From a virus: a stretch of DNA of 38,764 bases. The stretch's first letter is position 1. Every line of letters begins with the position of its first letter. Shown piece by piece: positions 8,560 to 27,997 of the stretch. The stretch covers positions 1-38,764 of the IMG/VR virus record IMGVR_UViG_3300035703_000201, one strand, 5' to 3'. The position numbers and the translations under genes are program-made. Under the pieces are notes generated by a model that saw only the letters and a list, made by a program, of their open reading frames with translations, was not told where the DNA came from and searched no databases.

Positions 8560-9968
8560 TGCGGTTTCCGTTTGGCCCCTTCCTGCCCGATCAGTTGCCC
8601 GTGGGCGCTGACAGGCTCATGGTCGCGGAGAACGTCCTTCCGGCGGTTGACGGTTATCGGGCTGTGGGTTCTTTCGCTTCAATCAGCGAAGCGTTGCCGG
8701 GTGCGTTTCTGGGTGGTGCCAGCTTCGTTTCGACTAGCAACACGGCCTATCTCTTGGCGGGGACGGCATCGACGCTTTCGCGGCTGTCTGGCGGCACGTG
8801 GACTAGCCTTCTGTCTGGTCTGACGATCACGAACCGTTGGCGCTTTGCGCAGTTTGGCGACAATGCCATCGCGGTTAATGGCGGGACAACTTACGATGTT
8901 GACCTAAGCGCAGGCACGGCTGCGGCGATTGTCGGCGCGCCTACGGCGATAGACGTTGACGTTGTTGGCCCGCACGTTGTCTATGCGCAGCCTAACGGGG
9001 ATATTCTGCGCGTTCGCTGGAGCGCGTTCGAGGATTACACCGGCAACACGCTAGGGACTAATCAGGCGGGCGATCAGCCTATGCTTACCGGCGGCGAGGT
9101 GATGGGTATCGCTGGTGGCGAGTTTGGCGTTATCCTGCAACGGCAACGTCTGGTGCGTATGTCGCTAACGGGTGACAGCACAGCACCGTTCCAGTTTGAC
9201 GAGATCACGCCTAACTTTGGCTGCGCGTCCAAGGGTTCGATTGCCAAGGCTGGCCGGACGGTGTTTTGCCTTAGCGACCGTGGATTTATCGGGATCGACA
9301 ACGGGCAACGCGTGCGCCCGATTGGTAACGAGAAATTCGATACGTCATTCCGTGAGGCGCTGGGCGAGGACGACTTCGAACGCGTGTGGGCGACGGTTGA
9401 CCCGCAACGGACGATTGTGGCGTGGGGTATTCCGGGCGTGCCGGGGCAGATTTGGGTTTACAACTGGGTGCTTGACCGCGCCTCTGTGCTTAAATTGAAC
9501 CATGATGCAATTTTTTCGGGGTTTGAGAACAGCCAAACGCTTGAAGAGGTGTCGGCAGCATATCCTGACATTGACACCATGCCGTTTAGCTTGGACGATC
9601 CGCGCTTTCAGGGCGGTGCGCCGAGGCTTTACGTGGTGCAGAACGGGCAAGTTGGCGTTCTGGCCGGTGCTCCGTTGGTTGCGAAGCTCAAGACAGCGCA
9701 ATTCCCGCCGTTTGGGGACGATCTGACGCGATTGCGGGCGGTTTGGCCTGATACCGACGCGGTAACGGGCTTGACGGTCACTGTAGAGGCCTCACAGCGC
9801 CGAGGCGACACGCCTAACACGGTGACTAGCAGCAATTTGCAGGACAGCGGGCGCATTCCGTTGCTTGTGCGCGGCAAGAACATGACCTTGCAGCTTGAGA
9901 TCAACAGCACCGATTGGACATATGCCAATGCAGTGACGCTGGAAGCTAGTTCAGGTGGCTTGCGGTGA
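8559..9968 (+). CDS. Tail hub / nozzle-like protein (P22 gp10-type, probable)
   Basis: A 469-residue beta-rich protein starting at GTG 8559, overlapping the adaptor stop. Repeating blade-like segments (YLLAGTASTLSRLSGGTWTS, WRFAQFGDNAIAVNGGTTYD, TVFCLSDRGFIGIDNGQRV, RTIVAWGIPGVPGQIWVYNW) suggest a beta-propeller. This is how nozzle or stabilisation proteins of short-tailed phages are built. The opening RFPFGPFLPDQLPVGADRL is typical for that family. It would close the tail channel and anchor fibres or spikes. The family assignment is from pattern, not alignment. Confidence 0.68.
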   Translation: MRFPFGPFLPDQLPVGADRLMVAENVLPAVDGYRAVGSFASISEALPGAFLGGASFVSTSNTAYLLAGTASTLSRLSGGTWTSLLSGLTITNRWRFAQFGDNAIAVNGGTTYDVDLSAGTAAAIVGAPTAIDVDVVGPHVVYAQPNGDILRVRWSAFEDYTGNTLGTNQAGDQPMLTGGEVMGIAGGEFGVILQRQRLVRMSLTGDSTAPFQFDEITPNFGCASKGSIAKAGRTVFCLSDRGFIGIDNGQRVRPIGNEKFDTSFREALGEDDFERVWATVDPQRTIVAWGIPGVPGQIWVYNWVLDRASVLKLNHDAIFSGFENSQTLEEVSAAYPDIDTMPFSLDDPRFQGGAPRLYVVQNGQVGVLAGAPLVAKLKTAQFPPFGDDLTRLRAVWPDTDAVTGLTVTVEASQRRGDTPNTVTSSNLQDSGRIPLLVRGKNMTLQLEINSTDWTYANAVTLEASSGGLR

Positions 9969-10480
9969 GACGCATCCCTGAAACCTATGATCGTCTCGAT
10001 TGGCCGCGTCTGGTCGCGCAGACTGTCAACGATATTATCGGCATACTCACGCCGACTTACGGCAAAATGTATATGCAGGCCAATGCTACTGTGACGGATA
10101 TTGTCACGGCAGCAACGCCGGTAAAGATTGCCGGAACCACTACGGCAGGCGAGCTAAACCAGCGTTTCACGCATTCGGATAATCGGCTAACCTATATCGG
10201 TTCGCGCACCAAAGTGTTTGAAGTGTCAGTGGTGGGCGTGCTGGTCAATGGTGGAAATAACGACCAATATGGCGTTTACGTTTATAAAAACGGCTCTGTG
10301 GTGCCAGAAAGCGAAAAGTTTATCACGGCTGATAGCAGCGGGCGCGTGACTAGCTTTTCAACGCAATGTCTGTTAGAATTGTCAACTGATGATTACGTCG
10401 AGATTTGGCTAGAGAACCTTGCCGACACTGACGATGCGACGATTAGTTACTTGAGTGTGATTGTAACCCCTGCGACTTGA
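9965..10480 (+). CDS. Virion protein with TNF/C1q-like jelly-roll character
   Basis: A 171-residue protein starting at GTG 9965, overlapping the hub gene. Residues 1-35 are a helical lead-in (PETYDRLDWPRLVAQTVNDI). The remainder is all-beta, with alternating strands such as TKVFEVSVVGVLVNG, QYGVYVYKNGSVVPES and DDYVEIWLENLADTDDATIS. That order resembles trimeric jelly-roll domains of phage tail and head decoration proteins. It probably forms a trimer attached to the tail or capsid. No enzyme motif is visible. Confidence 0.62.
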   Translation: MRRIPETYDRLDWPRLVAQTVNDIIGILTPTYGKMYMQANATVTDIVTAATPVKIAGTTTAGELNQRFTHSDNRLTYIGSRTKVFEVSVVGVLVNGGNNDQYGVYVYKNGSVVPESEKFITADSSGRVTSFSTQCLLELSTDDYVEIWLENLADTDDATISYLSVIVTPAT

Positions 10481-20432: not shown

Positions 20433-20713
20433 CCAAACCGAATACCCAAGCCGAGCGTCTGACGCGCATCGAAACCTTACTAGAGGGCTGGTTGGAAAAC
20501 CGAAGAGACGACCGTGCAGAATGGGCTGCTGAATTGCGCAAGATTCACGACCGCTTAGACCACATCCAGAGCGAGCATCAGGCCACTAACGAGCGCCTGT
20601 CTGCATATGAGAACAAGGGCAAGGGCCTGCTTATCGGCGTGGGCTTGTTTGGCTCCGGTATCGGTGCGACAATTCTGGCTGTTGTCGCCAAGTTCGCAGA
20701 GTGGTTCAGATGA
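20429..20713 (+). CDS. Holin candidate (coiled coil plus C-terminal TM helix)
   Basis: This encodes 94 residues from ATG 20429 (ATGA overlap). Residues 5-60 form a charged helix (ERLTRIETLLEGWLENRRDD, KIHDRLDHIQSEHQ), followed by one transmembrane helix (LLIGVGLFGSGIGATILAVV) and a short tail. This is the layout of XhlA-like holins and haemolysin-type lysis proteins. It lies immediately upstream of the endolysin. Holin function is inferred from place and topology. Confidence 0.65.
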   Translation: MTKPNTQAERLTRIETLLEGWLENRRDDRAEWAAELRKIHDRLDHIQSEHQATNERLSAYENKGKGLLIGVGLFGSGIGATILAVVAKFAEWFR

Positions 20714-21423
20714 TGTTTAGCAAACTAGCAAACCGCATTCGTGAGATTGCCGCTGTGGCGGATGTTCGCCCGCGTCCCAAGCCCGACACGATCAAGCGCA
20801 TGAATGAGAACTTGAATAAAGCTTTGGAAGGTGCGCCGGTTTATCCTGCCCCCGAAAAGGCTAAGGCTGACTTAGCGAAACCGCCGTTAGAAAAACCGGC
20901 CCAAATTTCTAACAGCCTGCCGCCTGTGACGCATCGCCGCACCGGCAAGGCTGGCATTGACCTGATGCACTCCTTTGAGGGCTGCGCTCGCAAGCTCCCC
21001 GACGGGCGTTATGCCGCCTATCCCGATCCCGGCAGCAAAGATGGGCATCCGTGGACTATCGGTTGGGGTAGCACCGGCCCTGATCCGTTCAATGGCGGGC
21101 AGATTCGCAAGGGGACTGTGTGGACGCAAGAGCAGTGCGACATGCACTTTGCCAACAGCCTTGGCAAATATGAAGCCGGCGTGAGGGATGCTTTGGGCAA
21201 GGCTCCGACTTCGCAGCTACAGTTCGACGCGATGGTGTGCCTGTGCTACAATATCGGCATTGGGGCATTTCAGCGTTCGTCCGTAGCGCGCAAGCATAAG
21301 GCTGGCGACTTTGGTGGCGCGGCCAAGGCTTTCCTTATGTGGGTCAAGAACGACGGAAAAGTGATGCGCGGGCTAGTTCGTCGCCGCGAGGCAGAGGCTG
21401 CACTTTATCGGAGTGGGTTCTAA
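20710..21423 (+). CDS. Endolysin, GH24 lysozyme
   Basis: This encodes 237 residues from ATG 20710. After a 70-residue basic, proline-rich N-terminal extension comes a T4/P21-type muramidase domain. It shows LMHSFEG (catalytic Glu90), AYPDP (Asp106) and WTIGWGS (Thr116), then the typical FDAMVCLCYNIGIGAF and GLVRRREAEAALY end. It hydrolyses the MurNAc-GlcNAc bond of peptidoglycan. There is no signal or SAR helix at the N-terminus, so release should depend on a holin. Neighbouring membrane genes fit that. Confidence 0.92.
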   Translation: MMFSKLANRIREIAAVADVRPRPKPDTIKRMNENLNKALEGAPVYPAPEKAKADLAKPPLEKPAQISNSLPPVTHRRTGKAGIDLMHSFEGCARKLPDGRYAAYPDPGSKDGHPWTIGWGSTGPDPFNGGQIRKGTVWTQEQCDMHFANSLGKYEAGVRDALGKAPTSQLQFDAMVCLCYNIGIGAFQRSSVARKHKAGDFGGAAKAFLMWVKNDGKVMRGLVRRREAEAALYRSGF

Positions 21424-21587
21424 TGGCTGTTATTCGCTATCTAAAGGCTCGTTTGGGCGAGCGTTCGACTTGGCTGCTGGTCGGTTCGGGCATAGGGACT
21501 GCGGCTATGCTGCCGTGGCCGTGGTCGCTTGTGTCGGCTGTGGTGCATACCGCCGCCGCGCTGGTGCCGGATGGGGGTGGGGAATGA
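21423..21587 (+). CDS. Small hydrophobic protein, second holin candidate
   Basis: This encodes 54 residues from ATG 21423, sharing a base with the endolysin stop. A basic N-terminus (MAVIRYLKARLGERS) leads into a long hydrophobic segment, probably one long or two short membrane helices (TWLLVGSGIGTAAMLPWPWS, LVSAVVHTAAALV), and an acidic end. Size and place fit a holin or antiholin partner of the 94-residue protein upstream. Confidence 0.6.
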   Translation: MAVIRYLKARLGERSTWLLVGSGIGTAAMLPWPWSLVSAVVHTAAALVPDGGGE

Positions 21588-21591
21588 TGCT

Positions 21592-21678
21592 GCGGGGCGG
21601 TGGGATTCGAACCCACGGGTGCCCGAAGGCCCTCTTGGCGTCCCTCAACCTTAAACCACTCAGTCACGCCGCCGCAGC
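21592..21678 (-). tRNA. Degenerate tRNA-like element, class II (Ser-type), antisense
   Basis: Read on the minus strand, this stretch has a perfect T arm (GTGGG-TTCGAAT-CCCAC, 21599-21615). It also has a G-C variable hairpin (GGGCC-TTCG-GGCACCC, around 21617-21633) and a Ser/Leu-style D loop (GAGTGGTTTAAGG). The acceptor stem closes if one C is bulged (GCGG-c-GGCG with CGCC-CCGC). I cannot draw a 5-bp anticodon stem or a loop with U33, so a working tRNA is unlikely. It is antisense to, and between, lysis genes. No host attachment role can be claimed, since no integrase is present. Confidence 0.5.
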
Positions 21679-21694
21679 CCCAAAGGACTAACCC

Positions 21695-22024
21695 ATGACC
21701 CCCATCATTGCAAGCACAATCGCCCGCAAGGTCTGGCAGATTATCGGCATCCGTGGCGCTATCGCTATTGGCCTTGCTATTGCGCTCCCGATCCACGGCT
21801 GCACCGAATACCGCAAGGGCTATCGGGAAGGCGTGGAGAGCGTTGAAGCCCGCCTGCGGGATGCAGAAGCGGAGAGCCTCAAGAAGGCCGCTATCGCAGC
21901 GCGCAAGGCTGACGAGGCAGGCGAGCAGCGGGCGATTGTCGAAGCGGAAACGCGGGCGGCTGACCTGAAGGCTATCGAGCGGGCGGAAGCGGAAGGCGGG
22001 AACGCCTTGGACAGCCTGTTCTGA
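21695..22024 (+). CDS. i-spanin-like protein (Rz type)
   Basis: A 109-residue protein with one N-terminal transmembrane helix (IRGAIAIGLAIALPIHGCTE, about residues 19-38) and a long periplasmic helix rich in Glu/Ala/Arg (EGVESVEARLRDAEAESLKK). This is the inner-membrane spanin layout. It follows the endolysin and precedes a lipoprotein with o-spanin features. Together they would fuse inner and outer membranes at the end of lysis. Unusually, the o-spanin gene does not overlap it but lies 124 bases downstream. Confidence 0.78.
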   Translation: MTPIIASTIARKVWQIIGIRGAIAIGLAIALPIHGCTEYRKGYREGVESVEARLRDAEAESLKKAAIAARKADEAGEQRAIVEAETRAADLKAIERAEAEGGNALDSLF

Positions 22025-26840: not shown

Positions 26841-26957
26841 TTATTCTCCAATCATTGCCAGCAGCCCCGCCACCAGCGGCAGGGCGAGCATCATTACAGG
26901 TATCAGCAGCGCAGTGCGGTTGTGCTGCCATGCGGTGCGGATTAGGGCGCGGATCAT
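26841..26957 (-). CDS. Single-helix membrane micropeptide (AWQH type)
   Basis: This encodes 38 residues: a basic start MIRALIRTAWQHNRTALL followed by a transmembrane helix (IPVMMLALPLVAGLLAMIG). The MI.R.L...AWQH pattern reappears in the 34-residue peptide at 28391-28495, so the two are paralogues. The ATG overlaps the stop of the repeat protein. The inner-membrane, N-in orientation is inferred from the positive start. Confidence 0.6.
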   Translation of the reverse strand: MIRALIRTAWQHNRTALLIPVMMLALPLVAGLLAMIGE

Positions 26958-27997
26958 GCGACTGCCACCAGCTTGCCAGCCTTGGCATGATACCAAACGC
27001 CAGCCTTAATGCCATTCTTGCCGGTGATCCCGCAGGCCACGGATGCGATGGAACCGTCATCGGCAAACTCGGTGCAATAGAGCGCCTGACCGTAGCCCTC
27101 GCACATCACCTTGCCTTGATACGCGTGGGAAAAGGCCGCGCCGCGAGTGCCACTGTTCGAAGCCGCGCCGCAATCGCCACTGTTCGAAGCCGCGCCGCGA
27201 GCGCCACTGTTCGAAGCCGCGCCGCAATCGCCACTGTTCGAAGCCGCGCCGCAATCGCCACTGTTCGAAGCCGCGCCGCAATCGCCACTGTTCGAAGCCG
27301 CGCCGCGAGTGCCACTGTTCGAAGCCGCGCCGCGAGTGCCACTGTTCGAAGCCGCGCCGCAATCGCCACTGTTCGAAGCCGCGCCGCCGTAGCCACTGTT
27401 CGAAGCCGCGCCGCCGTAGCCACTGTTCGAAGCCGCGCCGCGAGTGCCACTGTTCGAAGCCGCGCCGTAATCGCCACTGTTCGAAGCCGCGCCGCAATCG
27501 CCACTGTTCGAAGCCGCGCCGCGAGCGCCACTGTTCGAAGCCGCGCCGCCGTAGCCACTGTTCGAAGCCGCGCCGCGAGTGCCACTGTTCGAAGCCGCGC
27601 CGTAATCGCCACTGTTCGAAGCCGCGCCGCGAGTGCCACTGTTCGAAGCCGCGCCTTTAGCCTTCTTCGCACACCACTCAGTAACACGGCGCATCAATTC
27701 GCCCATCGTGATTTCAACGCCAATCGTAATGCTGGCGCTGGCGATCTTGTTGCCATCACGATCCGTCGCGCCCGATGCGGCCACATCGAAGTAGCGCGAT
27801 ACCCCCGGCGCGTAGTATTCAAACACAGCATGGGGTGGGTTTTCATCGTCCACGGGGCAGGCATGAAAGCCGCTTTCGCAAGCCCTCACAGGCCCGTCGA
27901 TAGTGTAGGTCTTGCCGACTTCAAACTGATAGCCACGGCAAGTCATGTCTTGGTTCATGCCCTTGATCGCGTGCACGGCTTCACTCTTCTTCGTCAT
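26954..27997 (-). CDS. Repeat protein with 19 x 9-residue array (DUF7666-like N-terminus)
   Basis: A 347-residue protein. Residues 10-105 are a conserved phage domain (KGMNQDMTCRGYQFEVGKTY, ACESGFHAC, YYAPGVSRYFDV, ASASITIGVEI), which I associate with DUF7666 from memory. Residues 115-285 are 19 perfect-length units GAASNSGxx, where xx is TR, DC, YG, DY or AR. Residues 286-347 form a closing domain (GKVMCEGYGQALYC, GVWYHAKAGKLVAVA). The array would suit a beta-solenoid. Similar Ala-Ser-Gly repeats occur in other phage proteins of this family; the role is unknown. It is coupled at both ends to membrane micropeptide genes. Confidence 0.8.
   Translation of the reverse strand: MTKKSEAVHAIKGMNQDMTCRGYQFEVGKTYTIDGPVRACESGFHACPVDDENPPHAVFEYYAPGVSRYFDVAASGATDRDGNKIASASITIGVEITMGELMRRVTEWCAKKAKGAASNSGTRGAASNSGDYGAASNSGTRGAASNSGYGGAASNSGARGAASNSGDCGAASNSGDYGAASNSGTRGAASNSGYGGAASNSGYGGAASNSGDCGAASNSGTRGAASNSGTRGAASNSGDCGAASNSGDCGAASNSGDCGAASNSGARGAASNSGDCGAASNSGTRGAAFSHAYQGKVMCEGYGQALYCTEFADDGSIASVACGITGKNGIKAGVWYHAKAGKLVAVA
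27143..27655 (-). repeat. Array of nineteen 27-bp coding repeats
   Basis: Nineteen head-to-tail units, 27 bp each, with 21 almost invariant bases containing the palindrome TTCGAA and six variable bases encoding residues 8-9. The near identity at silent positions indicates recent expansion or gene conversion. The unit length is a multiple of three and lacks stops, so several frames on both strands are open across it; those are by-products. Confidence 0.95.

Follow-up and report, generated by a model that had tools for sequence, protein, structure and literature searches.

The window analysed here is the IMG/VR virus record IMGVR_UViG_3300035703_000201, a single record taken at its full length of 38,764 bases, which carries a tRNA-like small RNA gene on its minus strand at positions 21,588 to 21,678. 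The sequence of this element clearly has its source in a class II tRNA. The element itself is probably an autonomously transcribed, non-decoding tRNA mimic, most likely acting as a decoy or sponge for a host tRNA-binding factor. The start site, structure, and mobility assigned to it draw on sequence evidence, and its processing, its partner, and its benefit to the phage are putative. The case is carried by the recurrence of the same plan in unrelated phages, by compensatory changes in its helices, and by a promoter-like sequence at a fixed distance from its first base.

Architecture of the element

Direct reading of the minus strand confirms what an initial annotation of this DNA had described, namely a perfect T arm, a Ser-type D arm, and a variable hairpin with no anticodon stem. 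The extent given there, 21,592 to 21,678, stands at the 5′ end, and the 3′ limit moves outward to 21,588. The acceptor end had been drawn incompletely, missing an outward stem (GCTGCGG/CCGCAGC), a 5′ bulge, four inner pairs, and the promoter-like sequence upstream. The parts of the element are as follows.

21588..21678 (-): tRNA-like small RNA gene, whole element; predicted first transcript base 21678
21672..21678 (-): outer terminal stem, 5′ arm GCTGCGG; 7/7 pairs with 21589-21595
21589..21595 (-): outer terminal stem, 3′ arm CCGCAGC, followed by A at 21588; the stem recurs in 13/15 scanned stretches
21667..21670 (-): inner terminal helix, 5′ arm GGCG; 4/4 pairs with 21596-21599; covaries over 15 elements; bulged C at 21671
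21596..21599 (-): inner terminal helix, 3′ arm CGCC
21648..21664 (-): D arm ACTGAGTGGTTTAAGGT, Ser-type; 3/3 stem pairs
21617..21647 (-): middle region without a proper anticodon stem
21618-21632 (-): variable-arm hairpin GGGCC-TTCG-GGC(A)CC
21600..21616 (-): T arm GTGGGTTCGAATCCCAC (GTGGG-TTCGAAT-CCCAC); 5/5 pairs

The fold of the middle region contains no 5-bp anticodon stem with a 7-nt loop. ARAGORN reports no tRNA in the window, and a scan of the window with the Rfam tRNA model gives no match at the gathering score. In a 501-base search the same model gives the element 22.0 bits (E 0.04), under the cut-off of 29.

Recurrence in other phages

The view of the sequence as a lone tRNA is not borne out by other phages. 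The MRE11-like exonuclease gene led to a relative of the window phage (L005) in which a tRNA-like sequence that differs from the window's lies next to an Rz1-like gene, enclosed by the same outer stem, GCTGCGG/CCGCAGC. A pattern scan for the outer stem and T arm in IMG/VR viral contigs returned 15 stretches, 13 of which are elements of the same kind (10 distinct) and place the architecture in unrelated phages; the remaining two are tRNA-Gln genes of ordinary type that belong to tRNA arrays. A control scan of the viral contigs, in which the letters of the stem were permuted, returned one stretch, an ordinary tRNA by eye. The pattern found 12 stretches in 84,980 species genomes, comprising two clear members, one unclear case (L031), and nine that by our reading are ordinary tRNAs, tRNA ends, or chance. 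L027 in Novosphingobium mathurense repeats L017 and L034 in Limnoglobus roseus repeats L015, so both are copies of elements from the viral scan.

With the 5′ side of the stem left free, the pattern gave 12 stretches, all of them members (L036 and L037 new). With the 3′ side left free it gave 14 stretches: 11 members (L039 and L040 new) and three without a T arm. The four elements gained with one stem side freed retain the GCTGCGG stem or nearly so, and BLAST of the L040 element gives no match. A common plan is shared by 15 distinct elements. Their 5′ and 3′ ends pair in a GCTGCGG/CCGCAGC terminal stem and an inner helix that covaries, usually with a bulge, and D and T arms flank a middle that is degenerate. 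ARAGORN labels some members, with inconsistent anticodons, and only L005 and L020, among 11 distinct elements scanned, reach the Rfam tRNA cut-off. L004 contains another tRNA-like sequence at 9247-9336 (-), with an acceptor of normal length and an irregular anticodon region; a lysozyme-like gene lies nearby.

The covariance model from this analysis, R1, scores the window element, which belongs to its training set, at 89.8 bits. Across 296 genomes of the L027 host's order, which we take to be Sphingomonadales, R1 matched every genome. Host sequences, tRNA-Ser by our reading, scored up to 61 bits, and the L027 prophage element alone rose above them, at 91.9 bits. R1 was not used for counting prophage members, because host tRNA-Ser-like sequences match it too.

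Conservation of the helices

Pairing was assessed over 15 elements, a set that leaves out L031, which has no recognisable D arm. In the inner helix 54 of 60 pairs form, against 31.8 when the 3′ partners are swapped, and the T stem is paired throughout (75/75 against 66.5 swapped); neither value is reached by any of 20,000 shuffles. The D stem is likewise complete (45/45) but varies little, and 1322 of 20,000 shuffles reach it. The outer stem and D stem add nothing to the swap test, because the former is near-invariant and the latter is not clearly above shuffles. In the outward terminal-helix test, for which L045 and L004 gave no row, at most 7 of 300 shuffles reach the observed helix in 11 of the 15 elements of the GCTGCGG group.

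A helix alignment of 14 of the 15 elements (A3, without L014, which is identical to L013 in the pieces used) has 97.4% of 266 cells paired, and 8 of its 19 pairs are changed on both sides, a result given by none of 500 shuffles. When the partners are slid, pairing falls to 40-51%. Alignment A1 misplaced the outer stem in some rows, and A2 holds 12 of the 15 elements, without L013, L014, and L039.

The initial annotation had suggested a decaying phage tRNA, which would make the element a former translational tRNA-Ser kept by chance after losing its anticodon arm. A tRNA score under the cut-off would suit such a history, as would the related element of Vibrio phage 1.273, which sits behind two ordinary tRNA genes. 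Decay would have spared neither the helices nor the sequence of the outer stem nor the constant spacing of a promoter, all of which are retained here. The compensatory changes in the inner and T helices over the 14 rows, the terminal stems longer than a tRNA's, and the appearance of the same degenerate plan in many phages also argue against decay, and a decaying tRNA-Ser is unlikely.

An unusual working tRNA, with an anticodon stem of 2-3 bp and a long acceptor, charged with Ser or Leu and serving phage translation, is another alternative. By eye, L010, L011, L013, L016, and L017 have 7-nt loops on 2-3 bp stems, and the ARAGORN labels, with their differing anticodons, may be counted on the same side. 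In the middles of the members no more than a few pairs form beneath a loop, no anticodon is common to them, U33 and R37 are not conserved (by eye), and the window has no anticodon stem at all. The terminal and T helices together span at least 16 bp, against 12 in tRNA, and few elements attain the Rfam cut-off (2/11). A working tRNA is therefore very improbable. The tRNA mimic, another suggestion of the initial annotation, finds support, since conservation and covariation across phages extend to the D/T elbow and the terminal stem and not to the anticodon arm.

A promoter-like sequence upstream

With the first stem G counted as +1, TA stands at -12/-11 in 13 of the 15 elements, and in 11 of 13 after dropping L014 and L037, whose flanks resemble those of L013 and L036. 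At any other offset from -60 to -6, TA is present in at most four elements. A-11 is present in 14 elements, G-14 in 13, T-15 in 11, and T-34 in 13, and promoter sequence was no criterion in the searches that found the members. The pattern of TA at -12/-11, TG before it, and TTG near -35 points to an extended -10 promoter whose start site would be the first base of the RNA. In L036 and L037, TTGACA is separated by 16 bp from hexamers of the TAAA type. The window has the following candidates.

21685..21690 (-): -10-like hexamer TAGTCC, at -12 to -7 from the first stem base; position kept in 13/15 elements
21708..21713 (-): -35-like hexamer TTGCAA; 17-bp spacer

Mobility and genomic position

L010 and L037 share 107 bp at 99%, running from the first stem base to 3 bases past the stem end, and have nothing else in common in the sequence compared. 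Because these 107 bp are all that they share, the element appears to travel as a discrete unit; insertion or exchange between resident copies could both explain the sharing. L010 is located between terminase and portal genes, and L037 beside a long tail-like gene (by eye).

Positions differ widely across the 15 elements, some of the neighbours having been named by eye only. Five elements are antisense to or beside lysis genes (the window, L009, L012, L016, and L017/L027), three lie in sense orientation between terminase and portal genes (L010, L040, and L011/L022), two face tail-like genes (L036 and L037), and five have other contexts. Several are close to where two gene blocks of opposite orientation meet. 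A GC-rich hairpin (GGGCGGCG...CGCCGCCC, inner GGG..TTCCC) is found near elements at L036 10706-10748, L037 5106-5148, and L009 4108-4149, with 91-93% agreement over 43 bp between L009 and L036/L037; it is possibly a two-way terminator at gene-block junctions.

Within the window, the element is antisense to the lysis cassette, in the gap between the end of a holin-like open reading frame (ORF) at 21,587 and the start of an Rz-like spanin gene at 21,695.

20701..21423 (+): endolysin (phage lysozyme); PHROG 7 and PF00959
21424..21587 (+): 54-aa holin-like ORF; called a holin only from its position and sequence appearance, with no family search made
21695..22024 (+): Rz-like spanin; PHROG 2536, E 7e-4

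This placement, together with the five elements at lysis genes, is what a cis-antisense regulator of the lysis operon would show, and the initial annotation had named an antisense role. Such a role does not generalise, as 10 of the 15 elements lie elsewhere, the three between terminase and portal genes being in sense, and antisense pairing has no need of a tRNA fold. A regulator of this kind is quite unlikely.

Integrases often use tRNA genes, and the element had also been viewed as a captured host tRNA end, that is, as a host tRNA segment serving as a phage attachment site. An integrase domain over the cut-off in 3 of 13 records would agree with this, but only these three have one, and PF00589 has no match in the window. 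Both tRNA halves are present in the element. L027 lies inside a Novosphingobium contig, flanked by an endolysin gene and, in the other direction, by genes that look phage-like by eye, and none of the 12 stretches from species genomes is a host tRNA with the GCTGCGG stem. In the one host genome compared, identity to the window element is limited, apart from the prophage copy, to about 20 nt of the T arm. An attachment site is highly improbable.

A wider group with the same D arm

A D arm nearly identical to that of the window occurs in Xanthomonas phage FoX2, in Vibrio phage 1.273, and in L072-L075, the last four from a D-arm pattern scan of viral contigs. L072-L075 have other terminal stems on the same plan, with best outward helices of 13, 23, 25, and 19 pairs, each reached by 0 of 300 shuffles. 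ARAGORN names only the L073 element among these four, as tRNA-Ala.

Two further tRNA-type sequences adjoin elements of this group. In L074, ARAGORN calls a tRNA at 9944-10021 (-) with anticodon TTA, which would read the stop codon TAA. In FoX2, a second odd tRNA (L045, 4625-4718; annotated as tRNA-Leu, called Pro by ARAGORN) has a long irregular middle and is preceded by about 600 bp with only tiny predicted ORFs.

Relationship to known RNAs and mobile units

The class II tRNA (Rfam RF00005) shares a D arm, a T arm, and a long variable arm with the phage element, which differs in having no proper anticodon arm, a terminal helix of at least 11 pairs beyond the T stem, and a score below the tRNA cut-off. 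The tRNA-like domain of transfer-messenger RNA (tmRNA) is likewise a tRNA-like module without an anticodon arm, but the phage elements have no tag-coding part, and their sole tmRNA match is sub-threshold (16.4 bits, L018). Phage morons resemble the elements in having their own host-type promoter, varied positions, and transfer as a unit; morons typically encode proteins, whereas the phage element encodes an RNA. Literature searches, at the level of titles and abstract openings, brought up no recognised description of such tRNA-like RNA genes in phages.

A close structural parallel is with bacterial Y RNAs, whose genes typically lie near that of Ro60 (rsr). One of them, YrlA, is reportedly the subject of Chen et al. 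2014 and presumably has a model in Rfam. The phage elements resemble YrlA in their end-pairing stem (11 pairs, as 7 + 4 with a bulge, in the window; 13-25 in L072-L075) and in their tRNA-like D and T arms (45/45 and 75/75 pairs over 15 elements), and differ in that the GCTGCGG group has its own conserved stem and promoter. YrlA is described as being 90-150 nt long, with a large stem joining its 5′ and 3′ ends and a mimic of the tRNA D, T, and acceptor parts, and as a substrate of DusA and TruB (PMC8394870). A second paper suggests that its tRNA-like domain may inhibit an anticodon nuclease by competition, and places its gene near Ro60 (rsr) in some bacteria (PMC7790460).

The Ro60/TROVE domain exceeds the cut-off of 23 bits in none of 24 distinct records, with one match below it, of 14.3 bits, in G312. 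A TROVE gene is present in 1 of 99 genomes from the order of one host, and that host itself lacks it. The Rfam YrlA model has no match to the window element (E <= 10), nor in L072, L075, and L018 (E <= 2). Membership among Y RNAs proper was rejected, the Ro60 neighbour and the YrlA model having both failed. The phage elements appear Y-RNA-like in build rather than demonstrated Y RNAs, which bind Ro60 and PNPase.

Proposed mode of action

The product would be a small non-coding RNA, roughly 91 nt long and extended by a 3′ tail. Judging from the conserved upstream sequence, an extended -10 promoter of sigma-70 type would direct host RNA polymerase to begin on the outer stem's first G. The 5′ and 3′ ends would pair as a bulged helix of 7 bp and 4 bp, indicated by covariation. 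This helix would stack on the T arm, with a tRNA elbow probably formed by tertiary contact between the D and T loops. With only a rudimentary anticodon arm, the RNA would not decode and would instead act like the tRNA-mimicking module of a bacterial Y RNA. Readers of the elbow or of the acceptor and T region, such as tRNA-modifying or -processing enzymes, PNPase, or a tRNA-cutting defence nuclease, may bind the mimic in place of tRNA. The element would then serve as a decoy or sponge that occupies such a factor, and would be carried as a self-contained, moron-like transcription unit.

Several points weigh against a transcribed mimic and decoy. Its transcription is predicted from sequence, and its binding partner and phenotype are putative. 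A strict sigma-70 scan calls no promoter in the window, the window's own candidate is weak taken by itself, and no Rho-independent terminator is found near the element. The promoter spacing is established for the GCTGCGG group, and L072-L075, FoX2, and Vibrio 1.273 have no visible match to it (by eye). Conservation of the GCTGCGG stem is partly ascertainment, because that stem was fixed in most searches, and without the stem R1 cannot separate members from host tRNA-Ser. The register of the inner helix was chosen by hand, with L009 and L012 forming only 2/4 pairs in it, and the outward-helix test is weak for L014, L017, L020, and L036 (reached by 16-53 of 300 shuffles). Single-strand folding of the window element is ordinary for its composition (z -0.20 against shuffles), so that chance could be tested only through comparison.

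A broader proposal, advanced tentatively, is that these elements form an undescribed phage family of Ro60-independent, Y-RNA-like tRNA mimics with their own sigma-70 promoter. They could be RNA morons distributed over phages from at least two bacterial phyla, and by engaging host enzymes that bind tRNA, such as PNPase or the nucleases of defence systems that cut tRNA, they could protect the phage. Phage genome mining is mostly protein-directed. An RNA gene that is mobile and imitates the elbow of a tRNA slips past tRNA finders by its low score, and spurious ORFs can overlie it. The covariance model from this analysis finds members, without a clean separation from host tRNA-Ser. If the decoy function is true, the elements would counter tRNA-targeting immune systems at the level of RNA, and would show that the Y RNA plan can work in the absence of Ro60.

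Other genes of the window

Annotation of the window is partial and covers 21 distinct proteins compared with PHROGs and/or Pfam. In BLAST of the window region against GenBank phages, similarity is confined to the MRE11-like and lysozyme genes. A 347-aa gene at 26954-27997 (-), on the strand opposite most window genes, has a DUF7666 domain and a weak collagen-repeat match.
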